Shown in pieces: positions 9,391-58,550 of a stretch of 58,550 bases of DNA (within the stretch, counting starts at the first letter, position 1; every line of letters begins with the position of its first letter). The stretch comes from a virus. The DNA is taken from IMG/VR virus record IMGVR_UViG_3300007513_000047, positions 1-58,550 of that record; one strand, written 5' to 3'. Both the position numbers and the translations under genes were made by a program. Below the pieces are notes generated by a model, which was not told where the DNA came from, did not search any database, and saw nothing but the letters and a program-made list of their open reading frames with translations.

Positions 9391-9915
9391 TTATGCTACG
9401 AATTCATCGCCAGGATTCCATGCACAACCTGTAAGACCACCAGCTTTTAATGCTTGTAATGTTCTTAATATTTCTTGTGCGTTTCTACCTGTATCTAATG
9501 CGTTGACTGAAACACTTTGAATTGTTCCATTAGGGTCAACAATGAATGTTGCTCTATAACAAACACCGTTGTCAATATCAACGATTCCTAATTCAGAAGA
9601 TAAATATAGTCCAGTGTCAGCTGCAAGTTCATGATTGATTTCTCTAATCATTCCATTTACATTTCTCCAGGCCTGTTTGCAGAATTCATTATCACCACTG
9701 ATACCAATTACTCTCGCCTCATCGACAAGTATGTCCATAGCGGCAATTTCTGTTGGGCATATGAATGTGAAATCTTTTGGATAAAAGTAAATGACACTCC
9801 AACCAACATGTTCCTCTAAACTTACCTCTGTTATATCGTTTGCAGGATTAACTCCTTGTAAATTAAAAGTAGGAAATTCATCACCTACAGTTAATTGTTC
9901 TCCTTCTCTAAACAT
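9391..9915 (-). CDS. AhpC/TSA-family peroxiredoxin
   Basis: A 174-residue peroxiredoxin. The peroxidatic cysteine is C53 in FTFICPTE with the conserved Pro and Thr, and a resolving-type cysteine is C164 in TGCAWNPGD. VIYFYPKDFT and the DNGVCYRATFIVDPNG region match the AhpC-type fold. The family reduces hydrogen peroxide and organic peroxides with thioredoxin or AhpF-like donors, presumably supplied by the host. I chose the ATG at 9915 because AGAGGAG sits 6 bases upstream; an ATG 17 codons earlier falls inside a tRNA-like element (9937-10008). A promoter lies at 10019-10047. Confidence 0.93.
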   Translation of the reverse strand: MFREGEQLTVGDEFPTFNLQGVNPANDITEVSLEEHVGWSVIYFYPKDFTFICPTEIAAMDILVDEARVIGISGDNEFCKQAWRNVNGMIREINHELAADTGLYLSSELGIVDIDNGVCYRATFIVDPNGTIQSVSVNALDTGRNAQEILRTLQALKAGGLTGCAWNPGDEFVA

Positions 9916-9936
9916 TTTTTCTCCTCTGTTTGAAAC

Positions 9937-10008
9937 TGGAGCGGAGTGAAAGTTTCGATACTTCATCTCTCAACTGGTAGTCGAGTGTGTTCTTTACACT
10001 AACTCCGC
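9937..10008 (-). ncRNA. tRNA-like element in the peroxiredoxin leader
   Basis: On the minus strand this 72-base stretch folds as a cloverleaf. The acceptor GCGGAGT pairs with ACTCCGC over 7 bp, followed by a T discriminator and an encoded CCA. The D stem is GTGT/ACAC with a 5-base loop; the anticodon stem CTCGA/TTGAG has loop CTACCAG (ACC at the anticodon position, T33, A37); a 4-base variable region and a weak T arm with loop ATCGAAA follow. The arm spacing (2, 1 and 4 bases) is canonical, but the D loop lacks GG and the T loop lacks TTC, so it is a degenerate tRNA or tRNA mimic. It lies between a promoter and the peroxiredoxin ribosome site. Confidence 0.5.
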
Positions 10009-11307: not shown

Positions 11308-13197
11308 TTATTTATTGAGTTTACGAACCTCTTTTCTTCCTCTGCCATCATCAAAGACAGGTGCAAATATTTTAACTGGTATGTCTTTACCCTTAACTTT
11401 AATCTCATCTATTTGTTGACATGCAATATTGTCCAATTGCATATAAGTATATTCGGATAAAAGAATTGGTGTATCAAAAGTTCTTGTTTGAACTTCTAAT
11501 CTTGCGCCAAGATTAACTGCATCTCCAACTACTGAGTAATCAAATCTCAATTCACTTCCCATATTTCCTACAATACATGGGCCTGTATTAATTCCTGTAC
11601 CTATTACTACTGGTGGTAAATCCATACCCTCATCTTTAATTTCTTGATTCATTTTCTCAGTGAGTAGTTCTATTTCTATTGCAGTCTTCACAGCCATCTC
11701 TGCATGATTAGGACAATCTAACGGAGCATTCCAAAATGCCATTAAACAATCCCCCATATACTTATCTACTGTTCCACCATTCTCAATTACCACCTTTGTC
11801 ATACCATCTAAGAATCTATTGATAAGTAATACTAGTCCCTCTGGATCATCATTCTTCATATAAGCTTCTGATATGGGAGTGAATCCAACTATGTCTGCAA
11901 ATAAGAAAGACATTTCTTTTCTATCACCACCAAGTCTAAGTTTACTTGGGTCTTTCTGGAGTTCTTCAATCATATCAGGAGATAAATATTTCTGGAACTG
12001 CTTCTTAATTTGTTCTTTGAGTTGGTAGGTCGTATAGTATTGGTTGAAAGAGGCATGCCCGAAAACAACTATGGAGGAAATCGATGACCAGAAAATATCG
12101 AAGAGAACGAGAGATGAAGACCATAAGTAGAAACCCCCACCCACCTGAACTAACACGATACTGGAACTCACTATCGCCGAGTAGACTGTGGGAAGTTTGT
12201 AAACCGATGCCAATATTCCTAGAAGGACTATCAAAAGAAGAACGACTTCTAAAAATTCAAGAAAGTCGGATTGTTGTATTTGAACTCCTGTCGAGACGGT
12301 TTGGATTAGGTTCGCTTGAACTTCGTGGGGATACATTGTACCCACTGGAGTTGAAATTGGATTAGCTAATCCTTCAGCAGTAAGACCATAAACTAGAATC
12401 TTATTCTCTATATCCGATTCTTTTAGGTCTGAGAATGAAATGGAATCAAACTGATTCCAATAAGAAATCATTAAGTCACCGCTTGATGTGGTCTCGATTG
12501 GCGAATCTCTTCCCATTTTTACCCAAACTATACCCTCTTCTTTAGTAACCCTAGTCTGATAATTAGGTTGGTCATAGAAAGCTCTGAGTGTTTCAAAGCC
12601 CAAACTCGGATAGAGCTGGCCATTGGCCTGGATGACAAGCGGAGCGCTCCTGATGGTACCATCAAAGTTAGGGGTTTTCGCCACACTAGGTGTAGCGACT
12701 GTGACTCCCATACCCCAAGCCGAACTTTGTAATCCGGGAATGGGACTCACCAAACCTGGAAAGTTCCATACATGGTCTTGTATATCACCATCTCCAAATA
12801 CAGATGTATTTACGAATGGTGCGTTGCCTGATTCTTTTTGAACTGTTGGTGCAGATGATAATATGGTTAATCTATTCTCTAATGCGTTTGCAAAGACTTC
12901 GTCTCCACCAAATCTATCTTCTTCTGAGAATAGAATATTGAATACATGAGTGTTTGTGTGGTGAGTTTCCCATAGAGTATCAGCATATATCTCTCTAGGG
13001 AATGGGTATTGACCTAGGGCGTCTATCGACTTTTCATCTATATTTACTAGAAGAATGTCTTCTACTTGAACTTTTTCTTTTGATGAATGTAGAACATCGA
13101 AGTAAGACCATCTAACATTATCTATTAAATAAGGCGACCATATCTTTACACCCACCAATGCAACGATAGTGAGTAATACCGTTTTCCAATTATACAT
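11308..13197 (-). CDS. CHASE2-domain class III adenylate/guanylate cyclase
   Basis: A 629-residue membrane receptor cyclase. An N-terminal span (TVLLTIVALVGVKIW) is followed by an extracytoplasmic CHASE2 sensor of about 290 residues (DILLVNIDEKSIDALGQYPFPR at its start). Two or three clustered spans (LEVVLLLIVLLGILASVY, then AIVSSSIVLVQVGGGFYLW) lead to a cytoplasmic class III cyclase domain. Its catalytic blocks are visible: LFADIVGFT, DKYMGDCLMAFWNAP and DYSVVGDAVNLGARLE. It should make cAMP (or cGMP) in response to a periplasmic cue. The start at 13197 overlaps the TAA of the upstream gene. It is the last large gene of the curli cassette; in bacteria CHASE2 cyclases often neighbour FecR proteins, as here. 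Confidence 0.92.
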   Translation of the reverse strand: MYNWKTVLLTIVALVGVKIWSPYLIDNVRWSYFDVLHSSKEKVQVEDILLVNIDEKSIDALGQYPFPREIYADTLWETHHTNTHVFNILFSEEDRFGGDEVFANALENRLTILSSAPTVQKESGNAPFVNTSVFGDGDIQDHVWNFPGLVSPIPGLQSSAWGMGVTVATPSVAKTPNFDGTIRSAPLVIQANGQLYPSLGFETLRAFYDQPNYQTRVTKEEGIVWVKMGRDSPIETTSSGDLMISYWNQFDSISFSDLKESDIENKILVYGLTAEGLANPISTPVGTMYPHEVQANLIQTVSTGVQIQQSDFLEFLEVVLLLIVLLGILASVYKLPTVYSAIVSSSIVLVQVGGGFYLWSSSLVLFDIFWSSISSIVVFGHASFNQYYTTYQLKEQIKKQFQKYLSPDMIEELQKDPSKLRLGGDRKEMSFLFADIVGFTPISEAYMKNDDPEGLVLLINRFLDGMTKVVIENGGTVDKYMGDCLMAFWNAPLDCPNHAEMAVKTAIEIELLTEKMNQEIKDEGMDLPPVVIGTGINTGPCIVGNMGSELRFDYSVVGDAVNLGARLEVQTRTFDTPILLSEYTYMQLDNIACQQIDEIKVKGKDIPVKIFAPVFDDGRGRKEVRKLNK

Positions 13198-13361
13198 TAC
13201 TGGATCCAGCAAACAGGATATACACACCAGTAAGGATTAGCAAATCCTAATAACCATAGTATGAGAATCCATAATGGGATTTTTACCCATGTTCTGCCTT
13301 TAGACCACTCTCTGAATCGTATGGCGTATGGTGCCATTTTATTAAACAACCAGTCTTGCAT
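13197..13361 (-). CDS. Small Trp-rich membrane protein, 54 aa
   Basis: A 54-residue protein starting MQDWLFNKMAP, with one membrane span (IPLWILILWLLGFA) and a short C-terminal tail holding two cysteines (YWCVYPVCW). Start and stop both sit in TAATG overlaps with the neighbours, so it is translationally coupled inside the curli cassette. Its position next to the cyclase suggests an accessory membrane partner, which is an inference. Confidence 0.6.
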   Translation of the reverse strand: MQDWLFNKMAPYAIRFREWSKGRTWVKIPLWILILWLLGFANPYWCVYPVCWIQ

Positions 13362-13546
13362 TATCCTCTGATTTCCTCTATAGGTTCTGGTATTACAATC
13401 TCTTCTGGTTGCATATGATTAAGGTAAATATACAATGCACCACCTAAAAGTGTAATCATCAAAGCCCATGCTAGTAATCTTCTCATAAATCTTTTCCTTT
13501 TTTTTAGACGCCACTCGCCTTTAAGTTTAATTATTCTCTCGTTCAT
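13361..13546 (-). CDS. Small single-span membrane protein, 61 aa
   Basis: A strongly basic N-terminus (KLKGEWRLKKRKRFMRR) precedes one span (LLAWALMITLLGGALYIYL) and an acidic, Pro-rich outer tail (QPEEIVIPEPIEEIRG), giving an N-in/C-out topology. The start overlaps the gene before it by 20 bases and the stop overlaps the next ATG. Coupled within the curli cassette; no family recognised. Confidence 0.6.
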   Translation of the reverse strand: MNERIIKLKGEWRLKKRKRFMRRLLAWALMITLLGGALYIYLNHMQPEEIVIPEPIEEIRG

Positions 13547-13739
13547 TTTCTTGTATAAAGTCTTTCATCTCTAACATCCAAGCTCTAAGTCTATGGGTTT
13601 GTTTCATGTGAAACTCTGCGTTCTTCTTATCTTCTAGTATCATTCTATTATGATAATCTATTACCCTCAGAATGATTCTTATGCCCTCTTGATATGGCAT
13701 ACGAATTAGAGTTGAAAATCTCTCTTTTTTTGTAGACAT
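13527..13739 (-). CDS. Hypothetical helical protein, 70 aa
   Basis: A charged, probably all-helical soluble protein (MSTKKERFSTLIRMPYQEGIRI..., HMKQTHRLRAWMLEMKDF). It follows the second curlin-like gene by 8 bases and overlaps the next small membrane gene. Function unknown. Confidence 0.55.
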   Translation of the reverse strand: MSTKKERFSTLIRMPYQEGIRIILRVIDYHNRMILEDKKNAEFHMKQTHRLRAWMLEMKDFIQENERENN

Positions 13740-13747
13740 TCAAGATA

Positions 13748-14578
13748 TTAGTTTCCTTGCGAAACCGTGACAGAACAACCGCCAGAAGTTTGGCAGTTTT
13801 GTGTAAGTGTATAATTTTGTGTTGTGTTGCCTCGTTGTTCGAAATCGAGAGTAGTTCCAAATGTTCCATTTAATGTTATGGTTGCATTGTGTTCGCCATG
13901 GCCATCTTGAAGATAATCAACAGTATTGTCATCATTCTGAACTGTTAAATAAAATTCTTTTGCACCATCGCCCTTTTGTTTGCCAAAGATTGAGTTATCA
14001 TCTCCATATAAATATATTCTTGCTGAGTGTCCATCACAATTACCTTGTGAACAATTTCGTTGTTGCCCAACTATTTCGTTATCATCTCCATGTATATCTA
14101 CGGTAACATAATGACCGCCACCCTCTGTATTATCAATTGCCCAACTAGTGTCGGTTCTACTTGAGATTTCATATCCTTGAGCCCACCATAACTTATTATT
14201 TGTTCCATAACTAATATGAAACTGAATATCATTCTTGTTGCAATCTGAATTTTTAGTACAGTTCTGCCAGAGTTTAACAGTTTGGTTATCATAGTCAATA
14301 TCACCACCCCAAGATGCGCCAGAACCCCAACTTGGAGAATCATTGGCCCAACCTATTTCGTTGTTAGAACCAACTTGTTTCATTTCAATCACAACATCAT
14401 CTCCATCACCTACAGAAAAGAATATATCGTTGTTGAATCCTTCTTGAATGATATCGATTTCTAAGTTGTCTCCACCTGCTACTTGATTAATGTTGATAGT
14501 ATTATCATCAGATGCTATAACTGATAAGGAAAACAATGTTCCTATTGCAAATGTTTTTATTTTATTTAAAAAATCCAT
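13748..14578 (-). CDS. Curlin-like secreted fibre subunit with paired cysteines
   Basis: A 276-residue secreted protein. An N-terminal signal (KIKTFAIGTLFSLSVIA) precedes repeated curlin-type strand-turn units with Gln and Asn ladders: NINQVAGGDN, IIQEGFNND, MKQVGSNNEIG, FEQRGNTTQNYTLTQ. Such units stack as a beta-solenoid in CsgA/CsgB. Unlike E. coli curlins it carries three cysteine pairs, C107/C113, C176/C181 and C262/C268, spaced as if to bridge turns. It lies directly after fecR in the cassette that also holds CsgG and CsgF. It is probably exported through CsgG; whether it is the major subunit or a nucleator cannot be told. Confidence 0.8.
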   Translation of the reverse strand: MDFLNKIKTFAIGTLFSLSVIASDDNTININQVAGGDNLEIDIIQEGFNNDIFFSVGDGDDVVIEMKQVGSNNEIGWANDSPSWGSGASWGGDIDYDNQTVKLWQNCTKNSDCNKNDIQFHISYGTNNKLWWAQGYEISSRTDTSWAIDNTEGGGHYVTVDIHGDDNEIVGQQRNCSQGNCDGHSARIYLYGDDNSIFGKQKGDGAKEFYLTVQNDDNTVDYLQDGHGEHNATITLNGTFGTTLDFEQRGNTTQNYTLTQNCQTSGGCSVTVSQGN

Positions 14579-14583
14579 ATTAA

Positions 14584-15735
14584 TTAACCTTGTTGAATAA
14601 TAACTATTTCTATTCCATCTCCATCACCAAATGTTATAACACCTTGATAACCTTCTACTTCGGTCTCTAGAGTTCCGGAACCTCCTGCGGCTATTATTAT
14701 ATTTATGTGTCCATTCACATCTCTAAAGAATACTAAGTCGCCATCTTGTTCAAAGATATTATACTGCGATTCTTTATTGAACCCAGCAGATGCACCTCTA
14801 AGTTTGAAACCTGCTATATCTGCGGCCTGTCTATCATCAACCAATACAACTCTAGTCTTTTCTAAAGCTTCAACAACATCTAATAAATCTTGTAAGAAGT
14901 CTACATCTAGATAATCAATATCTAATTCGGAGAAATCTCCTTCCATAGTGTCATCTAATGCATTTGCTTCTAGTTCATTAAACTCTAAGAAGTCGATGTC
15001 TAATACACCTTGGTCTGAGTTCTGCTCATCTGAATATGATTCTTCCATCGCCTGTCTTATCGCAGGTGGTGGATTCACAATAAACATATTGTCAATCATA
15101 CTAGGTGTTATGCCTTGAACAACAACTGATTTAGTTGGTGCGGCCTCAAAAGATGCGACTGTTGTGGCCGCATACGCTTGATTTAAAATCGTTTCACCGC
15201 CATCATTCCATACTAAAATCTCTCCTGATGTTTCACCTGTTGTTTCATCAGGCAAAAGAATGACCATTGTCCTACCCAACTCATCTATGGTTGTGGTGAA
15301 ATCGGTCCCTCTCATCGTAATGTTCGCCGTTGGTGTGGCGACATTAACATTTTGTTTTTTAATTCTATTACCAGCACCCGAGGCAAATCTTGATGTGCCT
15401 CTTACCATTCTAATCGACATCTTTGATAGACTTGGGTCTGGATCGTAATACGCCTCGTCAATATAAACAAGACTGTTTTCTGTTAATGAGAGTTGTTCTG
15501 CATCGAGGAACTCTATTAACATTCTGCCATTGGCAGTTTCCGCTTCATCATATAAAACTATGTCTGTTCCGACATCAGTTTCAAGCCGACTGTCACCTCT
15601 TTTTACGGAAGTGACACCTTTGTTTTCTACAATATCACCAATGGGTTCAGCATAAGCGAACCCACCGTATGATAAAAAAAGACTTAAACTAACTGTCGTT
15701 AGCAGCGTCTTTCTGATTAATTTGAATGATTGCAT
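14584..15735 (-). CDS. Secreted FecR-domain protein
   Basis: A 383-residue exported protein with a signal peptide (LLTTVSLSLFLSYGGFAYA). The FecR-type region covers GVTSVKRGDSRLETDVGTDIVLYDE, then GRMLIEFLDAEQLSLTENSLVYIDE and VATPTANITMRGTDFTT. A long acidic middle (Asp/Glu-rich, residues about 230-290) and a Gly-rich end (IIIAAGGSGTLETEVEGYQG) follow. FecR domains sit in the periplasm and are common beside CHASE2 cyclases and secretion systems. I chose the ATG at 15735, with GGA 8 bases upstream; a GTG two codons earlier is possible. It overlaps the upstream curlin-like gene. Confidence 0.85.
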   Translation of the reverse strand: MQSFKLIRKTLLTTVSLSLFLSYGGFAYAEPIGDIVENKGVTSVKRGDSRLETDVGTDIVLYDEAETANGRMLIEFLDAEQLSLTENSLVYIDEAYYDPDPSLSKMSIRMVRGTSRFASGAGNRIKKQNVNVATPTANITMRGTDFTTTIDELGRTMVILLPDETTGETSGEILVWNDGGETILNQAYAATTVASFEAAPTKSVVVQGITPSMIDNMFIVNPPPAIRQAMEESYSDEQNSDQGVLDIDFLEFNELEANALDDTMEGDFSELDIDYLDVDFLQDLLDVVEALEKTRVVLVDDRQAADIAGFKLRGASAGFNKESQYNIFEQDGDLVFFRDVNGHINIIIAAGGSGTLETEVEGYQGVITFGDGDGIEIVIIQQG

Positions 15736-16435
15736 TTTCACTATCCGCCGTTAAGGTTATATGGGCGTCTGGTGATGAGCAAGAATTGCCTGCACCCGAA
15801 ACACATGTTCCACTTAATTGATTGATATCAATATCAGCACTTGAACCAGTTAAAGTTAGGTTCAATGTTTGTTCTCCATCTTTTTGTAGAGTGTTAATGT
15901 TATTGGATCCACCTGTGACTGTAAAGTTCCAGGTAGCGTCATCTGACTCCCAATCAACATCGAATACATTACTGTTTCCTACTAAGACTAAATCTGCGTT
16001 CAATCTCTCTGCACTTAAAGAATATCCTTGGTCTAAATCGAATGTATTTGAATCACCATCAACATTAAAGTTAATATCTGAATCATCAGCAGAACCTGAG
16101 GCCCCTATGTTCCAATCAACTGAGTTTGAATTTCCTGAAAGTAGCAAAGTTATATCAGTGCTATCTGTGATAAAAGGTCCGAATAACAAGTTCTGATTAC
16201 CAATCATATCGATGTTTAAATCTAGAGTGTGACCAGTCATTGTCATAGCAGTACCAGAACCACTTGAATAATTATTTTGACCTATTTTGTTACCAAAACC
16301 GATTTGGTCAATATATAATTTCAAGGTGTCTCCAGTTTGTGCAATCATAACCTCATTATCATCTGTAGCAGCAGCGAAAACGAATGATGTCGACATTCCA
16401 AAAAGTAATGCTATACTTAATAAAAATTTATTCAT
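15689..16435 (-). CDS. Curlin-like secreted fibre subunit
   Basis: A 248-residue secreted protein. The signal peptide (FLLSIALLFGMSTSFVFA) is followed by repeated strand units with Asn/Gln/Ser ladders of curlin type: YIDQIGFGNKIGQNN, LSGNSNSVDWN, DGDSNTFDLDQG, VGNSNVFDVDW, GGSNNINTLQKDG, and a final IIQINQKD. There is one cysteine pair (TCVSGAGNSC). The gene overlaps csgG upstream by 8 bases and fecR downstream by 47. It is one of two curlin-like proteins in the cassette; by analogy one may nucleate and one polymerise, but sequence does not say which. Confidence 0.8.
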   Translation of the reverse strand: MNKFLLSIALLFGMSTSFVFAAATDDNEVMIAQTGDTLKLYIDQIGFGNKIGQNNYSSGSGTAMTMTGHTLDLNIDMIGNQNLLFGPFITDSTDITLLLSGNSNSVDWNIGASGSADDSDINFNVDGDSNTFDLDQGYSLSAERLNADLVLVGNSNVFDVDWESDDATWNFTVTGGSNNINTLQKDGEQTLNLTLTGSSADIDINQLSGTCVSGAGNSCSSPDAHITLTADSENAIIQINQKDAANDS

Positions 16436-17315
16436 TTTCTTCTCCTATTATCCAAAAGCCTCTATCGTGCCCTTGGTAAATTAATTCCAACACGGCAGCC
16501 TCGATAGCTGTTCGTGTTGCGTATGTCACTGACTCATTATTACCCACGCCGTCCTCGAACTCGACAAGTTGTGTTCCTTCTTCAAAGAATCGGAATACAT
16601 CTCCCCCAGCACCATAAGAAAGGATAGTCTTTCTTGTTTGGACATTCAATAATATTTCTCCTGTGAGAACACTAACAGCTCTCATAGAAATTGTCACAGC
16701 ATCTTGACGATACTGTTTGGCCATTCCAACACCTAGAGTTCTTGCGCCTCGACCTCCGGTTAGTAAATTGGAATCATAACCAATTATCCCACCTTCTATA
16801 ATTATGCCTGCGAATAGCATAGGTTGAATTCCTTGTGCTTCTGTCCCATTGGCAGTAGCAAAATCTTGTCTGGCAGAACGAATAATCTGCCTCTCTCTTA
16901 CTAAGTTGTCTATACCACCCCTTTCGACAACTCTAAACCACTTACCACCAGCGGCGGTTTTAAGTGCATCTATAACCATTGCTTCAGCGCCTTGTGTGAC
17001 TGCTGTAGAGAATGATGCAATGTTACCTTCTGATTTTCTTTGACCTGTTCTATCAATGAAATTATATACTGCAACCACTGGCATTTCTTTTGCAGGTGGT
17101 ATGTTTAACAGTTCTATGTATGATGGAAGTCTTATTACTTCCGGCGTATCAACACAAATATATTTTCTGGACATTATTTTATTAACACCTGTCCAAACAT
17201 CTTTGCCAAACCCCTCCTGATAATCACAATCTTTAGGGTCCATACTCCACTGTGGTATTGATGCACAACCTGACATAAGAATCAATAAAGAACTTAAAAG
17301 AAAATTTCGAAACAT
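16428..17315 (-). CDS. csgG: CsgG-like curli secretion channel lipoprotein
   Basis: A 295-residue homologue of CsgG, the outer-membrane nonamer that exports curlins. The lipoprotein signal ends in LMSGC with the acylated Cys near residue 16. The CsgG core follows: VVAVYNFIDRTGQRK, FSTAVTQGAEAMVIDALK, WFRVVERGGIDNLVRERQI, and a MLFAGIIIEGGIIGYDSN strand leading to GARTLGVGMAKQYRQD. These cover the family's conserved blocks, and length is close to E. coli CsgG (277). It overlaps csgF by one base and a curlin-like gene by 8. A complete secretion channel gene in a phage is very unusual. Confidence 0.93.
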   Translation of the reverse strand: MFRNFLLSSLLILMSGCASIPQWSMDPKDCDYQEGFGKDVWTGVNKIMSRKYICVDTPEVIRLPSYIELLNIPPAKEMPVVAVYNFIDRTGQRKSEGNIASFSTAVTQGAEAMVIDALKTAAGGKWFRVVERGGIDNLVRERQIIRSARQDFATANGTEAQGIQPMLFAGIIIEGGIIGYDSNLLTGGRGARTLGVGMAKQYRQDAVTISMRAVSVLTGEILLNVQTRKTILSYGAGGDVFRFFEEGTQLVEFEDGVGNNESVTYATRTAIEAAVLELIYQGHDRGFWIIGEENE

Positions 17316-17842
17316 TAACTGTCTCCAGGCACTGGCACAGGATCAGGGTCCTGACTAAAGTTTCCTGAACCTATTGGTATCTCTAATATTGTTTCTGTAC
17401 CATCTTCTGATACAATAGTCATTCTAATAAATTCTGAGCCGTCTGCGTTAGTGATTACTTCGTATGTGACTGTACTACCTTCTAATACAAATGAACCAAA
17501 ACGAGTTGCAGTATCGTTTGAGAACATTGATTCAACCAATTGTTTGGCCATTTGAGCATAGATACGGCTCTCTAAGTTTCTAATAAATTTTGCAAGGGTT
17601 GTATTGTCTTCTGCCCTTTCAGCAGCTTTACGAGCTGATTCTAATGCATCTTCTATCTCCGTCTTACGAGTGAACTCTTGGTTCTCTACTGTGAGATAAT
17701 GAGATGCGGTTCCCTTTCCACTGAAAGATGGATTTTTAAATTCGTGTGTTATTGGTGATGCGTAAACATTGTTTGCGTGTAGAAACAATACAAATAATAT
17801 TGAAAATACGAAACTAGCTATCTTTATCTTTTGTGTCTTCAT
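17315..17842 (-). CDS. csgF: CsgF-like curli assembly factor
   Basis: A 175-residue exported protein with a signal peptide (FVFSILFVLFLHANNVYA). The mature N-terminus, SPITHEFKNPSFSGKG, matches the CsgF segment FxFRNPxFGG that inserts into the CsgG channel. Two helical stretches (EDALESARKAAERAEDN, FIRNLESRIYAQMAKQLVESMF) and a C-terminal beta sheet domain (TYEVITNADG, RMTIVSEDGTETILEIPIGSG) follow, the E. coli order. CsgF couples CsgG to fibre nucleation at the cell surface. The gene sits immediately upstream of csgG. Confidence 0.9.
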   Translation of the reverse strand: MKTQKIKIASFVFSILFVLFLHANNVYASPITHEFKNPSFSGKGTASHYLTVENQEFTRKTEIEDALESARKAAERAEDNTTLAKFIRNLESRIYAQMAKQLVESMFSNDTATRFGSFVLEGSTVTYEVITNADGSEFIRMTIVSEDGTETILEIPIGSGNFSQDPDPVPVPGDS

Positions 17843-30493: not shown

Positions 30494-31669
30494 TTATTTA
30501 TCAGATTCTTCTCCATGACCTTTCATAAAATATGGGTAAGCTTTTGAACCTGTTTCCCACATATCTGAACCACCAACTTCTTCTTGTTCACCAACTCTGA
30601 TACCTACAGTCTTGTTTAATATCCACCATAATAGATATGATGTAGAGAAAACAAATCCAAATATTGTGACTGTTCCATATGCTTGATGTAAGAAACTTGC
30701 ATCTGCGTTTAGTATTGGGACTAACATAAGTCCTAAAACACCTGCGACACCATGAACTGATATTGCACCAACTGGATCATCACAACCTTTTCTTTCTATC
30801 CAACTCATAACAACAGGCATCATTACTCCACCCAATGAACCATATAGTAATGCGATTAAAGGTGAAGGTGTTAATGGGTCAGCAGTTATAACTACTAGAC
30901 CTGCTAATGCACCATTTGTTGTGGCGTTTAAGGCAGTCTTACCTAACCACAGTTTAGATAATATCATTGCAGATAAAAGACCACCAGCAGCGGCAGTATT
31001 AGTGTTTACAAATATCTTTGCGACTGCATTTGCGTTCTCTACACCATCTATTGCAAGTTGTGAACCACCATTGAATCCAAACCATCCCATCCACAAAATG
31101 AGTGTGCCTAATGCGACTTGAGCCGCATTGGAACCGTGTATTGGTTTAGGTGTTCCGTCTTTTAAGTATTTACCCTTTCTTGGTCCAAGTATTAAAACTC
31201 CTGCAAGTGCGGCTGAAGCCCCAGCCATATGAACTATGCCTGAACCTGCAAAGTCAAAGAATCCTCTCTGACTCAACCAACCACCACCCCATGTCCAAGA
31301 ACCTTGAATTGGGTATATAATTGTGGTGAAGATAGCGGCAAACAATAAGAATGTCCACAGTTTCTTTCTTTCTGCGACTGCACCTGATACAACTGACATT
31401 GCAGTTGCGACAAATACTACTTGAAAAAAGAAATCAGAATACATCGAATGTGTTTCTATATCTCCCCACCCATACATAAGGGAATAACCCCCTACTAAAA
31501 ACCCTACAGATGCGACACTATAAAGTGCAACATTCTTTAAGAGTATTTCTATAACATTTTTACTTCTAACTGAACCCGCTTCTAGCATGGTAAAACCGGC
31601 TGCCATCCACATGACTAATACGCCAGACATTAAAAAGTAAAATGTGTTTAATGAATATGATAAATCCAT
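30494..31669 (-). CDS. amtB: Ammonium transporter, Amt/AmtB family
   Basis: A 391-residue, about 11-span membrane transporter. The pore features of AmtB are intact: Asp139 and His147 in FDFAGSGIVHMAG, and His306 in AISVHGVAG (the twin-histidine pair), with MGWFGFNGGS upstream. Length is that of a normal Amt. The gene should import ammonium/ammonia in the infected cell. No glnK/PII gene follows; the C-terminal tail lacks the usual SEHGExAY motif, which may free it from host PII control. It sits between def and gp46 with AGGAG before its ATG. Very unusual in a phage. Confidence 0.95.
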   Translation of the reverse strand: MDLSYSLNTFYFLMSGVLVMWMAAGFTMLEAGSVRSKNVIEILLKNVALYSVASVGFLVGGYSLMYGWGDIETHSMYSDFFFQVVFVATAMSVVSGAVAERKKLWTFLLFAAIFTTIIYPIQGSWTWGGGWLSQRGFFDFAGSGIVHMAGASAALAGVLILGPRKGKYLKDGTPKPIHGSNAAQVALGTLILWMGWFGFNGGSQLAIDGVENANAVAKIFVNTNTAAAGGLLSAMILSKLWLGKTALNATTNGALAGLVVITADPLTPSPLIALLYGSLGGVMMPVVMSWIERKGCDDPVGAISVHGVAGVLGLMLVPILNADASFLHQAYGTVTIFGFVFSTSYLLWWILNKTVGIRVGEQEEVGGSDMWETGSKAYPYFMKGHGEESDK

Positions 31670-50103: not shown

Positions 50104-51138
50104 TTAAGTATTGTCTTCATCAGCAAAAGTATATCTTGCTCCATCATCATAATATGTCACATTTTCTGCAACAACAAATGTATCTGCTGGGTCTACTGAA
50201 CCAACAAATTTAAGTAGTGTGTTTGCATCAACTGTTATAGCAGCTGATAATACCATTGATAATTTGTTAGCGTGAATAGATGCAATGGTTGGATTAGTTG
50301 ATAAGTTTGTTCCAAACACCTCGTCTGCAACACTTATCTTACTGTTTATTGCAGTTGCAAAGGTTACCGTAGTTGAATTGGATACTGCATTACATCTTTC
50401 TCCAAATGCAGGTTCATAGTGTTTAACTTCTTTAATTAGACCAGCGGCAGTTATCTCAGATGTTGAAAATGCAGTTTGTCCATCTCCAAGATAAGTTCTT
50501 TCAATAACATTCTTAATAATATTACCAGTGTATACAGGTCCAAAGAAGTATGTTTTCATTGTAAAGTCTAAAGTGTATTCTATAATTCTTCTATCTTCGA
50601 ATGAACCTTCATAATCATCTTGAAAAGATACACTATTTAAAATGACAGGTACATCTCTATTATCAGGCATTGAATCTACCATTTTCATTGTGACTGTATA
50701 TTCTGGTTGAAAGTATGGAAGAATCTGTTCTACTATCTGTAATGCATCATTCATATTCTTTGTTAGAATAGATAATGTAAAGTTTAAATTGTATGGTGCT
50801 GGGTTGTATTGAAAACCTCTCTTACCATCTGCCTCATAAGTAGACTTTGCGGCTCTTATAAGTTTATTCTGTTGTCTTTCTCTATCATATTCAAAACCTG
50901 TAAGTTCAAATGCCATACGAGGTAATGATATTGCACTTCTATTTTTATCTGATAAATTAGGTTCTTCTGCGATTCTATCTAAAAACTTTTGTTTAGGTCC
51001 ATATGATAACGGAACAATAGGAGAAGTCAAAACAGTTCCATCTGCTTTGACCTTCTTATATTGTATATTATTAAACAAGGTACCAAATACTGATACGCAC
51101 CGTTTAATAGTTTCATTATAGAAATATGTTCCGAACAT
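50104..51138 (-). CDS. gp15: Proximal tail sheath stabiliser gp15
   Basis: A 344-residue protein: MFGTYFYNETIKRCVSVFGTLF at the start and QIVEQILPYFQPEYTVTM in the middle, matching T4 gp15 (272). The extra C-terminal domain (from about residue 230; KISVADEVFGTNL, LLKFVGSVDPADTF) looks beta-rich and may be a decoration-type insertion. Confidence 0.92.
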   Translation of the reverse strand: MFGTYFYNETIKRCVSVFGTLFNNIQYKKVKADGTVLTSPIVPLSYGPKQKFLDRIAEEPNLSDKNRSAISLPRMAFELTGFEYDRERQQNKLIRAAKSTYEADGKRGFQYNPAPYNLNFTLSILTKNMNDALQIVEQILPYFQPEYTVTMKMVDSMPDNRDVPVILNSVSFQDDYEGSFEDRRIIEYTLDFTMKTYFFGPVYTGNIIKNVIERTYLGDGQTAFSTSEITAAGLIKEVKHYEPAFGERCNAVSNSTTVTFATAINSKISVADEVFGTNLSTNPTIASIHANKLSMVLSAAITVDANTLLKFVGSVDPADTFVVAENVTYYDDGARYTFADEDNT

Positions 51139-51353
51139 TATGCATTGTCCTCTACATATTGTTTTATATCTCCAACAGTAAATATGTTTTCTGCATCTTC
51201 ATCAGGTACAGATATACCATATTCTTCTTCTACTGCCATTACCAATTCTACAACATGAAGAGAGTCAGCTCCCAAGTCTTCGACTAGTTTACATTCATCT
51301 CTTACTGCATCTTGGTCTATATTAAGAGTATTTGCTATTATTTTTTCTATCAT
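51138..51353 (-). CDS. acpP: Acyl carrier protein
   Basis: A 71-residue ACP. The phosphopantetheine attachment site is Ser31 in EDLGADSLHVVELVMA, and the four-helix layout and acidic charge are normal. Stop and start overlap gp15 and gp14 by one base each, so it is a cleanly inserted gene in the neck operon. ACP carries acyl chains in fatty acid or lipid synthesis; here it could feed a lipid, signal or protein-acylation step. Confidence 0.95.
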   Translation of the reverse strand: MIEKIIANTLNIDQDAVRDECKLVEDLGADSLHVVELVMAVEEEYGISVPDEDAENIFTVGDIKQYVEDNA

Positions 51354-53345: not shown

Positions 53346-54059
53346 TTAGTAAATGTAGTTGCCGTCTTCATCTATATGCCATATGTTATCTAGATTTTTT
53401 ATATCATCTCTATGAAAGCTATCTTCGTTTTTTCCTAGTGTATAATTTCTCATTCTGACTTGCATATTAAAGGATATACTGTATCTTTCTTTATCAGTTA
53501 AGTTTGGTGCGACCATATGCATAGCAGCACTAGGAAACATTAACAAGTCTCCTGTTCTAGGTGTTATTCTGACATTATCATGCAGTCTTGGAGCGGCGGG
53601 CATATCAGATACAACCTTAGGGTCTTTATCAACAAACACTATGTCTCCTTCATCTCCATCGGCCCTTATATACATAGCACCAGAATAGAAACAACCGTTG
53701 TGTAAATGTGGAGAATTCCATGCACCGAAACCATTAATGTTTCCCCATGAGTTATGAAATTCTATATCAAAAGAATCTTTCTTAACACCCATGAATGGCA
53801 TAATTTCATCTCTCATCACCCTCTTTATTTGTCTTACTGCACCAATGAATATAGGATTAGTTTCTAAACCATCATTTGATTGCCAACTAGTATTTTCTTG
53901 ATTAGATAAAAATCTTCCTTCATCTCTTTTTCTTATTGCGTCCATCTCATCTCTCAACAGACCAAAATACTCTTCGGTCATAGTTGAACACCTATCTTTC
54001 TCTTCATGTAAAAAAGATTTATGAAATAGATAAGTTGGAAACATTAGTCTAACTGCCAT
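53346..54059 (-). CDS. 2OG-Fe(II) oxygenase, phage structural-neighbour type
   Basis: A 237-residue dioxygenase: iron ligands in NSPHLHNGCFYSG, and distal His plus Arg in AAMHMVAPNLTDKERYSISFN. This family (similar to TIGR02466) is common in marine T4-like phages near tail genes. Substrate unknown. Confidence 0.85.
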   Translation of the reverse strand: MAVRLMFPTYLFHKSFLHEEKDRCSTMTEEYFGLLRDEMDAIRKRDEGRFLSNQENTSWQSNDGLETNPIFIGAVRQIKRVMRDEIMPFMGVKKDSFDIEFHNSWGNINGFGAWNSPHLHNGCFYSGAMYIRADGDEGDIVFVDKDPKVVSDMPAAPRLHDNVRITPRTGDLLMFPSAAMHMVAPNLTDKERYSISFNMQVRMRNYTLGKNEDSFHRDDIKNLDNIWHIDEDGNYIY

Positions 54060-54910
54060 TACTTCTCCTCATCTGTTATGTGTGCAGGACATTCTGGTGG
54101 CGGTTTATCTTCTTTAAAGTATTGTCCTTTCTCTTTCCAATAACCTTCTAATCTATATGGACCCAATTTCTTCGAATCACTATTTTTATATTCATCGTAC
54201 ATTTTTCTTCCTTGTTCGTCCATTCCAGGCATGTCTGCATGTCTTGTATATTCACTTCTGTTTTCATGCCACACCTTAGCGTCTTTTAATTGATATGTTG
54301 CAGTCCATTTTTCCCTCTTGAAAGGAATCACTTGAACGAGAGGCGTGCCTTTCGGTATAGTAAATGAATGTTCTACTTTAGGATAGAATATGATTTGCGA
54401 ATTATCCAAATTTGTGTTAAACTTATCTGTATCTATAACACCTTGCCAAACTGCAAAATAATCATTTTGAAATAGAAAAGGGTCTAAGTAGAAACAAGAA
54501 TAATCTGTTGGTGTAATAATGTTCCATGCATTTCTCATTTTAAACGCATCTTTAACATGACCTTTACCATTCTTTATATAATCAAATGCATTATCAAACT
54601 GTTCAGATGGATGTGTCGGAGAACCATAGCCTGAATCTGTTGGGTCTTTTGTTGTAAAATTCTCATTCGACAAACCATCTCTATCTTGTCCAACTAAAAC
54701 TTCCATATCTCTATTTGCGAGAATATACCAACCAGACTTTAACCAATCGTCCATAGCTGGACATGCACGAATAGTTTGAGTTCTTCTACCTCTTACTGCT
54801 TGGAAGATTTTCATTTTCTTCCACCAGTCTGGCATAATAGATTTAGCCAGAATAGGTTTAAAATCCCTTATCGTGTTGTCATTAAATGTAGTGAAGTCTA
54901 TCGTTGGCAT
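54059..54910 (-). CDS. DUF6065-like protein, 283 aa
   Basis: Residues include DWWKKMKIFQ, RACPAMDDWLKSGW, NPW-like NAWNIITPTDYSCFYLDPFLFQNDYF and the FTIPKGTPLVQVIPFKREKW block, which I associate with DUF6065 proteins of unknown function. The beta-rich middle could be a cupin-like barrel. It lies between two oxygenase genes and overlaps the next by 29 bases, so a shared pathway is plausible. Confidence 0.55.
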   Translation of the reverse strand: MPTIDFTTFNDNTIRDFKPILAKSIMPDWWKKMKIFQAVRGRRTQTIRACPAMDDWLKSGWYILANRDMEVLVGQDRDGLSNENFTTKDPTDSGYGSPTHPSEQFDNAFDYIKNGKGHVKDAFKMRNAWNIITPTDYSCFYLDPFLFQNDYFAVWQGVIDTDKFNTNLDNSQIIFYPKVEHSFTIPKGTPLVQVIPFKREKWTATYQLKDAKVWHENRSEYTRHADMPGMDEQGRKMYDEYKNSDSKKLGPYRLEGYWKEKGQYFKEDKPPPECPAHITDEEK

Positions 54911-55616
54911 TATAAAACTCTTCTTTTTCTACTAGTTCTATTTCATCTCCTCTTAGAACTACTGAGCGTCTATCCATGTATCTCGCTCTTTCTGTTGGTG
55001 CATCTGCACCGTGTGGTATTCTTCCGTCAAACATTAACAATCGATTCGGAACAAACTCAATGTTTCCGATTTCATGATTCTTAATGTGTTCGTTTCTACC
55101 ATCTAAACCTTGTTGTGGTTCATCATATATTCTTAAATTACCACCCCATTTCTTTTCCCAAAATGTATTATAATAATATAAGAATGAGAGATTCCAATCA
55201 TCATCTTCAGCACAATCACTATGAGTTGTTCCATGCTGACCATATGTTTGAGAATTTAGTCCCATATATTGAAATCTTTTCCATTTGAATCCAAAATCAG
55301 TACATATTCTTCTATTCAACCATCGAGCAGGAATAGATTGTAATGCATCAACACAAACTGAATCTCTTTCAACTACACCATTCTCTACTCGAAAAAATGA
55401 TGCACCCCAAAATGAATGATGTGGTAATCCTGTTCTACTGTGACCTTGTACTGAATTTGTTTTAGACCATATTGCATTATTGGTAAACTTATTATTAATC
55501 CAATAGTGTAGACTCGTTTCTAGATAGTTGTCTATTACATAAATTTTATTTCTTATGGGAAAGTCAACCAATCGAAACGGCTTATCTAGATAGATAATCT
55601 CAAGGTCTTCAAACAT
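54882..55616 (-). CDS. 2OG-Fe(II) oxygenase, 244 aa
   Basis: A fourth dioxygenase: iron ligands in QHGTTHSDCAED, and IPHGADAPTERARYMDRRSVVL as the distal His and Arg region. Long N-terminal region (residues 1-110) has no recognised domain. It overlaps the DUF6065-like gene, so the two may be coupled. Confidence 0.82.
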   Translation of the reverse strand: MFEDLEIIYLDKPFRLVDFPIRNKIYVIDNYLETSLHYWINNKFTNNAIWSKTNSVQGHSRTGLPHHSFWGASFFRVENGVVERDSVCVDALQSIPARWLNRRICTDFGFKWKRFQYMGLNSQTYGQHGTTHSDCAEDDDWNLSFLYYYNTFWEKKWGGNLRIYDEPQQGLDGRNEHIKNHEIGNIEFVPNRLLMFDGRIPHGADAPTERARYMDRRSVVLRGDEIELVEKEEFYNANDRLHYI

Positions 55617-55620
55617 GTTT

Positions 55621-56172
55621 TTAACCTATTAAAGCTTTCTGTGGTGAAGGAATCTGGTTTGAGTAATCTTCGAACTCTCTTAGAGTGTCTTCTCTAGTGT
55701 TTCTAATTTCTTCAACCACATTCAAGTAAACATTCCATACTGCATCATAATATTCTAATACTCTTCTAGCATCTGACCTTAAGGGGTGGTTTGAACCTTC
55801 TCTGCCGGCGGCAACTACATCCATGATGTTTTGAAATCCATAAGAATCGGATTGATCCATGATATAACCTTCACACATGTTTTGCAGTTGTCCACTAAAT
55901 TGATTTTGTAGACTTACTCCTTCTGGTGGAGCTGAATTAGATATGTATGTTTCAATCGCATCAATTTCAGAATCAACTAAGTTAATCTTCTCTTGGTCAT
56001 CAAACTGTTTAGTTTCGTCCCATTTTAAAATTTTAACTTCAATATCATCATAAACCAATACATCAAATTCAAAACCTAATTCTGGTTTATCTGTGTTCTC
56101 GAACCTGTATTCGAGTCCGTTTGGTTTTCTAACAGTAAGATTTCCATTTTCACAATAAATTAAAGCATTCAT
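55621..56172 (-). CDS. Hypothetical protein, possible tail fibre assembly-like
   Basis: A 183-residue protein: a beta-rich N-terminus (LIYCENGNLTVRKPNGLEYRFE) and a helical C-terminus (DARRVLEYYDAVWNVYLNVVEEIRNTREDTLREFEDY) that resembles the assembly-chaperone or DUF4376-type tail. It sits between an oxygenase and a glycosyltransferase-like gene. Weak assignment. Confidence 0.45.
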   Translation of the reverse strand: MNALIYCENGNLTVRKPNGLEYRFENTDKPELGFEFDVLVYDDIEVKILKWDETKQFDDQEKINLVDSEIDAIETYISNSAPPEGVSLQNQFSGQLQNMCEGYIMDQSDSYGFQNIMDVVAAGREGSNHPLRSDARRVLEYYDAVWNVYLNVVEEIRNTREDTLREFEDYSNQIPSPQKALIG

Positions 56173-56185
56173 AATTTCTCCATTA

Positions 56186-57715
56186 TTAACTGAATTTGTT
56201 CAATATATTTCTATAAGTATTTAGTTCTTCTATTTGGGTCGTATCCATACCCTCAATCCATGGTCCGCCTCGTGTATAATGTATTGCACTAGGTCTCCAA
56301 TTAGTTTCTCTTGTATCATGTCCTTCTGTAAACACATAATGTTCTGGTATCTGAGATATCTTATCAGTCCATTCAAATTGATGTAAGTATTTACCACTTG
56401 CAGTATTAATTACTTCTGGTGTAAGTTTTTTGCAGTCTTCGTGTGCGTTATTAAATATCATTAGCGAAGACCATAGTTTCTTTGGATACGAAACATTCTT
56501 TTCACCATCGAACTTAGTATCTGGATATTTGTCAAAGTCATATTGTATACATGCGACTGCATCATCTGGGTCCAGAAAGTAGAACATTGGCCATAAACTC
56601 TTAGTGAATAATATATCATCGTCTAAGAATATACTAAATCCTTCGTAATTTTCTAAGTATGGAATTAAGAATCTACTGTAAGTAAATTCTGTAGATTGAT
56701 TTGCATAGTCTCTAGTGTATTCAGGAATCTTAGATATATCAAGAAAGTTAATTTCTGGTTTCCATTTATTCATCCAATTGTGAACCTCTCCACCACCAGC
56801 GCCAAATTTCGTTGAATATTCAATACACTTCTTATTTAATTCTGCGAGATTTTTATGTCTAGAATCGTAACCAATGTATACATTTGAGTGTTTACCTTTA
56901 GCTAACTTATTGATTTTCTTATTAAAATCATAAACTTCTGTTCTAAAAGTCATCTGTAATAAGTCGGTTAGTATCTCTATATAACCATGAGTAAATGCAA
57001 ATGATATATTCTTATGATACTTATCTGGTCTTGCAAGTATCTTTTCTTTAGCCCAATCTATAATTTCTTCTATTTCTATTTCCGGAACAGGTATGATATC
57101 GTATTCGTCCCATATCCACATTTCCATATCCCAATCATCTAGACATTCAAATACAGGAGAACGAACAGAACCTGGGTGAATGTTTAAACTAAACATATCT
57201 CCTTGTTTTTTAACTATACCTTGAATTGGATTCCATAAACCCTCTTTTCTTATACTGTTTACTAACCAATGTGCTTTAGCGGCATGATAATATACAGAAC
57301 ATATGTTCTCTTCAAAGTCTGGATTATGTGATTCATCAATATGCGTTCCTATCTTTTCATATTCATCATTTGAATTTTTGAACTCCATACCCGAGTGACC
57401 AGGTTTTGGATTCTCTGGTTTATATGTATAACCATGTGGTAAGAAATACTGATATCCAAAAGCTTGAGACTGCAATGCGTTCCAACCAGAAAACTTACCG
57501 TCTCTAATTAACTTAACTACATCTCCCCATGTGACTCTTTTAAGTTTTAGATTATATTCTTTGATTATATATTTTAAAGATTTGTATGCCTCTTTGTCTT
57601 CGTAAGGTTCATCTATGTTGAACCCGCCCATGTGCATATGGAAAGACCTGTCTTTCCAATCTTCTTTTTCTAGAATGGCTATAGTGTCACTTAAAGTTTT
57701 AGAACTGATACTCAT
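56186..57715 (-). CDS. Two-domain protein with GT8-like glycosyltransferase domain
   Basis: A 509-residue protein. The C-terminal part (from about 290) reads VYIGYDSRHKNLAEL, then FTYSRFLIPYLENYEGFSIFLDDDILF, with a DDD metal motif, typical of GT-A folds that act on galactose- or glucose-type donors. The N-terminal part, about 270 residues, includes GLWNPIQGIVKKQGDMFSLNIHPGS and VFECLDDWDMEMWIWDEYD and is unassigned. It may modify virion or surface glycans. A late-type box is upstream. Confidence 0.6.
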   Translation of the reverse strand: MSISSKTLSDTIAILEKEDWKDRSFHMHMGGFNIDEPYEDKEAYKSLKYIIKEYNLKLKRVTWGDVVKLIRDGKFSGWNALQSQAFGYQYFLPHGYTYKPENPKPGHSGMEFKNSNDEYEKIGTHIDESHNPDFEENICSVYYHAAKAHWLVNSIRKEGLWNPIQGIVKKQGDMFSLNIHPGSVRSPVFECLDDWDMEMWIWDEYDIIPVPEIEIEEIIDWAKEKILARPDKYHKNISFAFTHGYIEILTDLLQMTFRTEVYDFNKKINKLAKGKHSNVYIGYDSRHKNLAELNKKCIEYSTKFGAGGGEVHNWMNKWKPEINFLDISKIPEYTRDYANQSTEFTYSRFLIPYLENYEGFSIFLDDDILFTKSLWPMFYFLDPDDAVACIQYDFDKYPDTKFDGEKNVSYPKKLWSSLMIFNNAHEDCKKLTPEVINTASGKYLHQFEWTDKISQIPEHYVFTEGHDTRETNWRPSAIHYTRGGPWIEGMDTTQIEELNTYRNILNKFS

Positions 57716-57748: not shown

Positions 57749-58550
57749 CTACGAAGTAATAGGTGATCCAGGCCAAGTACCAGTGCCATCCCAACGGATA
57801 ACTGGTGTTCGCCCTTGTCTTGCATATGTAGACGGCGACCTATGGTCGTAAGTTGAAGGTTGTTGTCCTTGTCTTGCATATGTAGTAGGACTTCTGTGGT
57901 CGTAAGTTGAAGGTTGTTGTCCTTGTCTTGCATATGTAGACGGCGACCTGTGGTCATATGTGAATGGCGACTGTTTACTTGTCGGATGTTGATATGTCGA
58001 AGGACTTCTATGGTCGTATGTCAATGGCGACCTATGGTCATAAGAAGATGGCGACCTGTGGTCATATGTAAACGGTGACCTGTGATTATATGTAGTAGGC
58101 GACCTATGGTCATAAGAAGATGGCGACCTATGGTCGTATGTAAATGGACTTTGTTTATTTCTAATATTGGGTTCTTGAGCATTACTAGGTTGCTGAATAT
58201 CTCTAATATTAGGTTGTTGAGCAGACCTAATATTTGGTTCTTGTGCATTACTAGGTGATTGATTATTTCTTATATTAGGTTGTTGAGCAGACTTAATCGT
58301 AGGTTGCTGAGCATTACTAGGTTGTTGAGCAGACCTAATGTTCGGTTCTTGAATGTTTCTAATGTTAGGTTCTTGACCAGCCTTAATCGTAGGTTGTTGA
58401 TTATTTCTAATGTTTGGTTCTTGTGCGTTCCTAATGTTTGGTTGTCTAGCATTAGCAATATAAGGCGACTGGAATGTAAACGGTTGCCTATACGGTTGTC
58501 GAGCATTAGCAATATAAGGACTTTGATAAGTAAACGGTTGTCTATATGGT
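57749..58550 (-). CDS. Octapeptide-repeat structural protein, C-terminal part
   Basis: A reading frame open from the right edge to a stop at 57749, 266 residues visible and continuing upstream. It consists almost wholly of 8-residue units with Pro at position 3: first the QEPNIRNA and QQPTIKSA type with some 6-residue QQPSNA units, then the RSPSTYDH type. The end is RTPVIRWDGTGTWPGSPITS. The regular Pro/Gln/Asn pattern suggests an extended fibre or shaft. Similar repeats occur in structural proteins of marine phages, so it may be a virion or tail fibre component. Confidence 0.7.
   Translation of the reverse strand, partial: PYRQPFTYQSPYIANARQPYRQPFTFQSPYIANARQPNIRNAQEPNIRNNQQPTIKAGQEPNIRNIQEPNIRSAQQPSNAQQPTIKSAQQPNIRNNQSPSNAQEPNIRSAQQPNIRDIQQPSNAQEPNIRNKQSPFTYDHRSPSSYDHRSPTTYNHRSPFTYDHRSPSSYDHRSPLTYDHRSPSTYQHPTSKQSPFTYDHRSPSTYARQGQQPSTYDHRSPTTYARQGQQPSTYDHRSPSTYARQGRTPVIRWDGTGTWPGSPITS
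57790..58460 (-). repeat. Tandem 24-base repeats encoding octapeptides
   Basis: About 20 or more imperfect 24-base units in frame with the protein above; units of one class remain recognisable, and shorter 18-base units occur. The register follows codons, so it is a coding repeat rather than a CRISPR array or a mobile element. Slippage could vary the copy number. Confidence 0.75.

Follow-up and report, generated by a model that had tools for sequence, protein, structure and literature searches.

The octapeptide-repeat protein encoded at the end of the window (the whole 58,550-base IMG/VR record analysed here) is probably one of a pair of chains that build a long fibre, where it would run antiparallel to, and in register with, the product of the gene directly upstream. 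These two proteins, referred to as D and C respectively, match each other in length, are complementary in sequence in a consistent antiparallel register, and are encoded side by side in relatives of the window phage.

Octapeptide protein D in the window

The source record is a T4-like marine myovirus in which the gp13, gp14, terminase, sheath and head genes lie downstream of D. The D reading frame is open at its 5′ side because the contig stops at position 58550, inside the repeat array. Its parts are as follows.

57749–58549, minus strand: 3′ part (266 aa) of octapeptide protein D; the 5′ end is missing, and complete relatives are known
58448–58549, minus strand: residues 1–34, first unit class (RQPFTY / QSPYIANA), which differs from that of locus L002 of the same species
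58154–58447, minus strand: residues 35–132, PxIR-type units (QEPNIRNA-like), opposite PxTY units of C in complete relatives
57812–58153, minus strand: residues 133–246, PxTY-type units (RSPxTYDH-like, plus RSPSTYARQG), opposite PxIR/YIAN units of C in complete relatives
57752–57811, minus strand: residues 247–266, conserved tail RTPVIRWDGTGTWPGSPITS, the last 14 residues of which would overhang the paired stretch, adjoining the N-terminal domain of C

Window D contains 36 prolines, and 21 of the 35 spacings between successive prolines equal eight, compared with 1.8 on average, and never more than 8, when the sequence was shuffled 5000 times. Similarly, self-identity at a lag of eight residues was 0.353, while shuffled sequences averaged 0.084 and reached at most 0.143 (2000 shuffles). 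Both measures are far above the shuffled sequences, confirming that the octapeptide array described in an earlier, sequence-only reading is genuine. The two unit classes which that reading saw joined without a break are both real, but a third class exists at the 5′ side, and its statement that proline occupies every eighth position needs to be reworded as proline at even distances, the remaining spacings being six (7 cases), ten (3) and four (2), with odd values restricted to the final two (11 and 3), inside the tail. The window D sequence had no match in Pfam, PHROG, NCBIfam or the PDB. Structure prediction, proposed earlier as a check, gave an AF2 monomer of D with a pLDDT of 39.6, no secondary structure and no fold, a result that would be expected of a chain dependent on a partner and equally of a disordered one.

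A two-residue periodicity in the octapeptide proteins

Across 110 non-redundant octapeptide proteins, 4479 of 4526 spacings between successive prolines were even. When the spacing of eight was excluded, 608 distinct units were even versus 27 odd, counts that overstate independence, as units that differ in sequence cannot be taken for separate events. Other residues keep to one parity relative to the preceding proline: tyrosine (13 same parity, 3000 opposite), phenylalanine (19 and 1457) and histidine (15 and 839) occur at the opposite parity, while isoleucine (1741 same, 101 opposite) and aspartate (487 and 83) share that of proline. For pairs of Tyr, Phe or His at separations of 9–63 residues, multiples of eight excluded, 35,205 of 98,127 even separations were occupied versus 595 of 131,276 odd ones; Pro–Pro, aromatic–aromatic and Ile–Ile pairs were each common at even separations and almost lacking at odd ones. 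The parity signal was also present in window D by itself (0.345 bits; shuffled mean 0.052, maximum 0.152, 2000 shuffles).

Two alternating faces are the mark of an extended β-strand, whereas polyproline II gives a period of three. Because the period is two and the odd separations are almost empty, the octapeptide proteins fit an extended β-strand and not polyproline II, and this pattern in the sequences points to a β conformation. The polyproline-type shaft suggested earlier is therefore not supported, the constraint having a period of two, not three. A collagen-type fibre was rejected with it, since periods of two and eight were found instead of a three-residue periodicity, and glycine makes up 2.6% of window D. 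Since every proline has the same parity, the backbone positions without an NH would all line one edge of the strand.

Probable partner protein C

In relatives, the gene directly upstream of D encodes a second octapeptide protein, C, which begins with an N-terminal domain (MATGSQKVKTPTGWN...ASGQ); the window edge precedes this gene. The 61 distinct C/D pairs were reduced on the basis of shared 10-mers to 37, and exclusion of one with an alternative C-terminal domain left 36. In 29 of these 36 non-redundant pairs, the repeat body of C matched D to within 12 residues, with D spanning 222 to 562 residues, compared with a mean of 3.3 and a maximum of 11 pairs when C and D were paired at random (10,000 trials). 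The seven misses include L235 and L254, which carry an alternative C-terminal domain, and the broken C of L110; the others are one-sided copy changes in L160, L078, L023 and L076. At least five of the 36 pairs break the length rule through a copy change on one side, and such changes may be genuine or may reflect repeats that collapsed when short reads were assembled. Variable copy number, anticipated in the earlier reading, is supported in relatives, where C or D proteins that are otherwise 90–100% identical differ in length by 18, 36, 44, 88 or 132 residues.

The ANTIPARALLEL complementarity of the two proteins was evident when D was reversed against C: proline met proline at an offset of −14 from the D end in 26 of the 29 length-matched genomes, while the best offset was −12 in two and −6 in L190, where −6 gave 29 coincidences and −14 was a close second with 26. 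In all 29 genomes, the antiparallel coincidence of prolines exceeded that in each of 200 shuffles of D unit order. Mutual information per C–D residue pair peaked at 1.289 bits in the antiparallel orientation (offset −16), compared with 0.211 bits at the best parallel offset and 0.287 bits for C and D drawn from separate genomes roughly matched in length; most of the signal disappears on such mispairing, so C and D change together. A pair code built from the 29 length-matched pairs, which represent one clade of related phages, placed the register within two residues of −14 in 29 of 29 genomes when each was left out in turn. The code is symmetric (E–H, I–T, D–P, A–S and Q–R; S–E, H–N, A–F, G–Y and V–Y) and extends to whole units, with PxIR–PxTY (220) and PxTY–PxIR (273) combinations but no PxIR–PxIR among the 1152 units with coinciding prolines. 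D therefore has two unit classes because its PxIR half opposes the PxTY half of C, and vice versa.

It is very improbable that this complementarity is a relic of gene history, left by inverted duplication or sense–antisense coding, and not a trace of protein pairing. C and D are paralogues, with plus-strand DNA matches of 69–86% in L009, but minus-strand matches extend over merely 12 nt (E 0.38), proline opposite proline is impossible from reverse-complement codons (CCN versus NGG), and the signal would not be expected to vanish for the most part in mispaired genomes, as it does. A disordered state of both chains, as sticky proline-rich adhesives or linkers whose order stems from tandem duplication alone, is judged improbable. 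The low-complexity composition, the want of a confident AF2 model and the visible duplication of 18- and 44-residue blocks are all consistent with it, yet duplication leaves unexplained both the excess of even over odd units other than octapeptides and the antiparallel complementarity with the neighbouring C.

Pairs that differ in length retain the same register at one end. All 18 length-mismatched pairs read −14 in the first quarter, and in pairs with one-sided copy changes the register then mostly moves by as many residues as were gained or lost (−32, −58 or −102); since the two agree exactly, each change resembles a single loop, or else repeats that collapsed during assembly. The register of L095 goes from −14 to −58 to +30, that of L110 is +4 in one quarter, and L023 reads −14 in all four quarters in spite of its length misfit.

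The window's own C–D pair is inferred from L002, because C falls outside the window. L002 belongs to the same species (99.84% identity over 8732 nt, gapless, with the D arrays diverging at the 5′ side) and carries D together with a partial C that includes 82 residues of the C body. The pair code gave its highest score, 60.6, at K=75, which is where the C/D family predicts the register to lie, followed by 54.3 at K=39 and then 1.2. Pro–Pro coincidence alone gave 8 of 11 at K=205 and 7 at both 75 and 241, so that the register in L002 is singled out by the learned code only.

Relatives of D and comparison with the T4 gp5 needle

With the window D protein as query, 40 loci were found in viral contigs, and of 380 stretches recovered from viral contigs with 22 aligned relatives as query, 360 were confirmed, not all from different phages, the best 80 being kept. 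The family thus seems common. Complete D relatives are 222–584 aa long, end in RWDG/N...WP, and are encoded between tail-fibre genes and gp13 in T4-like marine phages. A tblastn search of D against 50,697 phage records returned two weak matches only (E 9e-3 and 3e-4); a local control recovered 10 of 10 loci at E <1e-43 at the 50,697-record database size, and the filter therefore does not hide relatives. In a pattern scan of genome contigs five stretches matched, of which none was confirmed, and a PDB profile search with 22 D sequences found nothing at E 1. A Cementoin match (7 of 22 D members, best 5.8e-8) was set aside as QxP composition summed over many repeats.

The family that most D members weakly match is Pfam Gp5_trimer_C (PF22178; 8 of 22 at E up to 1, best 0.0032). 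The C-terminal domain of T4 gp5, a phage tail part, is itself built of octapeptides (PMC3004832), and D could accordingly be pictured as a homotrimeric intertwined β-helix like the gp5 needle, with one octapeptide per strand. Octapeptide units with conserved residues two apart, on one parity, are common to gp5C and the proteins described here. In contrast, gp5C is a homotrimer with glycine and valine and a nearly fixed unit length, whereas the present proteins are characterised by Pro, Q/R and I/T, a different partner chain, and units of 6–12 residues, those of 6, 10 and 12 being common. No D member reached the curated PF22178 cut-off of 30.9 bits (L002 scored 11.8), and a homotrimer predicts neither the length match nor the residue complementarity with C. 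In addition, antiparallel comparison in one genome gave 56 Pro coincidences for C against D versus 30 of 59 for D against itself, and D–D or C–C pairing was rejected on this comparison. A homotrimer is therefore judged improbable. The earlier view that the repeats are unlike known β-helix fibres is half right, as gp5C is also built of octapeptides, a likeness that may not reflect kinship.

A second pair and the C-terminal domains of C and A

Two further octapeptide proteins, A and B, are encoded farther upstream among the tail-fibre genes. Their antiparallel Pro coincidences numbered 27–31, compared with at most 21 in 500 shuffles, in four of four loci, two of which (L038 and L352) are close relatives. 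Unit types were again complementary (PxTY–PxIR 45, PxIR–PxTY 7, PxIR–PxIR none). In one genome, no register stood out for the pairings A–C, A–D, B–C or B–D, whereas it did for C–D and A–B.

The C proteins differ at their C-terminal ends. A Hint-like domain was called in 21 of 54 distinct C sequences, with scores below the curated cut-offs (Intein_splicing E 2.5e-7, 31.1 bits versus 35.8; Hint 2.8e-4; NCBIfam intein_Nterm 23.5 versus 24.5). The N-terminal Cys, TxxH and C-terminal HN were all present in at least 20 C sequences (all 20 among the matches listed). In L009 (5357–7459) and other C genes, the domain follows a glycine run, with the pattern GGGGCF...TxxHP...HN and a short tail, and C proteins lacking it finish in a comparable short, Gly-rich tail, as though it had been inserted at that point. 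In L036 (908–2392), L254 and L235, another C-terminal domain of ~130–140 residues replaces Hint, and the repeats still pair at −14. The A proteins of L038 (7974–9563), L037 (7974–9242) and L040 (7357–8994) have differing C-terminal globular domains with no Pfam match, which are candidates for receptor binding.

Gene neighbourhood and associated enzymes

Downstream of D, the window encodes a set of genes with conserved order.

56186–57715, minus strand: glycosyltransferase-like protein (phrog_28018; weak Pfam GT8 match under the cut-off), always adjoining D
55621–56172, minus strand: conserved protein c7, function unassigned, placed by conserved gene order
54882–55616, minus strand: 2OG-Fe(II) oxygenase c6 with a prolyl-hydroxylase-like fold (Pfam, invariant iron site, AF2 model)
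54059–54910, minus strand: conserved protein c5 (phrog_7084), placed by conserved gene order
53346–54059, minus strand: second 2OG-Fe(II) oxygenase, c9 (TIGR02466), which other clades carry without D

The exact order glycosyltransferase–c7–c6–c5–c9–c8–gp13–gp14 was found in 102 of 105 loci reaching gp13 and gp14, which comprise 54 distinct glycosyltransferase sequences. D is encoded in the tail-fibre region of relatives, with baseplate and neck genes, near gp13/gp14, a context consistent with the earlier description of D as a fibre-type repeat protein.

Seeding with the glycosyltransferase (best 80 of 315 loci) recovered an octapeptide ORF within 3 kb upstream in 76 loci and the D tail in three with <300 nt upstream, one being too short, so that D was present in 79 of the 79 loci with enough upstream sequence. 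Similarly, D was found in 65 of 65 testable loci when seeding with c6 (best 80 of 344; 15 too short), several contigs being shared between the two scans. In contrast, none of 41 gp13-seeded loci of other clades with ≥3 kb upstream had an octapeptide ORF, and five of these 41 (9 of 83 overall) encoded c9 without D. The Pelagibacter phages HTVC008M and Mosig and the Methylophilales phage Melnitz share the gp13–gp14 neighbourhood (gp13 49–51% identical), which in HTVC008M and Mosig holds other 2OG oxygenases, and in all three no octapeptide ORF was found within 40 kb around gp13. D, the glycosyltransferase and c6 are thus jointly present in one clade and jointly absent in others, which is one evolutionary contrast, not many, so that their linkage rests on a single clade.

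The assignment of c6 is based on several lines of evidence. It matched PF13640 at 39 bits (cut-off 27), with 24 of 24 members above the cut-off, and the HxD...H iron site (H132, D134, H202) was invariant in 24 sequences. In a profile search of the PDB, the best match was prolyl hydroxylase 6t8m (E 8e-4), followed by HIF-type enzymes at 0.06 and weaker and one unrelated entry at 0.6. The AF2 model (pLDDT 74.7, pTM 0.80) matched PHD-type folds in 50 of 50 cases among the matches listed (Z 13.0–13.8, rmsd 3.5–4.0), PHD2-type enzymes aligning best, although the PDB contains a disproportionate number of PHD2 entries and similarity of fold does not reveal the substrate. Foldseek added Tpa1 and OGFOD1. 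The nearest NCBIfam model to c6 was FlmC, far under the cut-off, and a profile of the glycosyltransferase retrieved no genuine relative from the PDB.

Proposed fibre model

In the proposed model, C and D would form a heterodimer, aligned antiparallel and in register along nearly the full extent of both chains (about 220–560 residues each). Each chain would be an extended, β-strand-like tape with alternate residues on one face, the two together forming a two-chain β ribbon. PxIR units of one chain would oppose PxTY units of the other, and unit type, unit length and total length would therefore be matched. One end of the fibre would consist of the RWDG tail of D together with the C N-terminal domain. 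The opposite end would carry the D N-terminus along with the C-terminus of C, which is Gly-rich and in some cases bears Hint or another domain. With all prolines on one parity, the missing backbone NH is proposed to point always away from the partner, stopping sideways growth of the ribbon. If uncoiled, a ribbon of 250–560 residues would measure about 80–185 nm at the textbook rise of 0.33 nm per residue, which is the size range of tail fibres.

Gene position makes it most likely that the C–D fibre belongs to the tail-fibre set of the virion. An unlikely alternative is that the pair forms a non-virion filament or an assembly scaffold within the infected cell, as might be supposed from the curli-type operon of the same phage; the location among tail-fibre and neck genes in relatives argues against it, as do the starts of complete D, C and A proteins, in which no signal peptide was evident by eye.

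The clustering of genes for a proline-rich fibre, a prolyl-hydroxylase-like enzyme and a glycosyltransferase suggests, speculatively, that c6, and perhaps the glycosyltransferase, may modify the C–D fibre by hydroxylation and possibly glycosylation. A fuller reading, advanced only tentatively, is that each phage has two such two-gene fibres, A–B and C–D, of antiparallel β tapes with a residue-level code, hydroxylated and glycosylated by enzymes encoded in the same cluster, in which the co-evolving order of units might set fibre length and specificity.

Relation to known systems

Paired tail-fibre proteins exist in phages, but to our knowledge no fibre has been described in which two tapes run antiparallel and match through a residue-level code, and among the titles and abstracts listed by literature searches none dealt with a protein pair like C–D, subscription papers and preprints lying outside their scope. 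Plant extensins and collagens are hydroxylated and glycosylated fibres, and Dictyostelium Skp1 is an example of an enzyme relay. The likeness to these lies in proline-rich repeats near a prolyl-hydroxylase-like enzyme and a glycosyltransferase; they differ from the present system, which has approximately one proline per eight residues and two complementary chains, is phage-encoded, and for which modification is a prediction.

If the model is correct, mutual selection of repeat proteins at the residue level over hundreds of residues would represent a new principle of fibre assembly, with a pairing code readable from sequence alone. It would account for changes in fibre length without loss of fit to the partner, offer a natural model for programmable β-ribbon materials, and assign a function to some of the 2OG oxygenases carried by marine phages.

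The host recognition cluster of pelagimyophages resembles the D locus in being an island, between the VrlC gene and gp14, that encodes tail fibres and GT8 glycosyltransferases; the available text names different domains there, YadA and collagen repeats among them, and does not describe octapeptide proteins (PMC7029224).

Other genes in the window

A curli-type operon lies at 11308–17842 on the minus strand, encoding a CHASE2-cyclase, FecR, CsgG (8.7e-50) and CsgF (4.9e-12). A curlin repeat above the Pfam cut-off was found in the protein encoded at 13748–14578 (3.8e-7), and a second, weak one at 15689–16435. The window phage therefore seems to have curlin-like subunits, in contrast to the pelagimyophages, in which, according to the available text, curli genes occur elsewhere in the genome and CsgA and CsgB are missing (PMC7029224). 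The window also encodes an ammonium transporter (30494–31669), a peroxiredoxin (9391–9966) and an acyl carrier protein (51138–51353).
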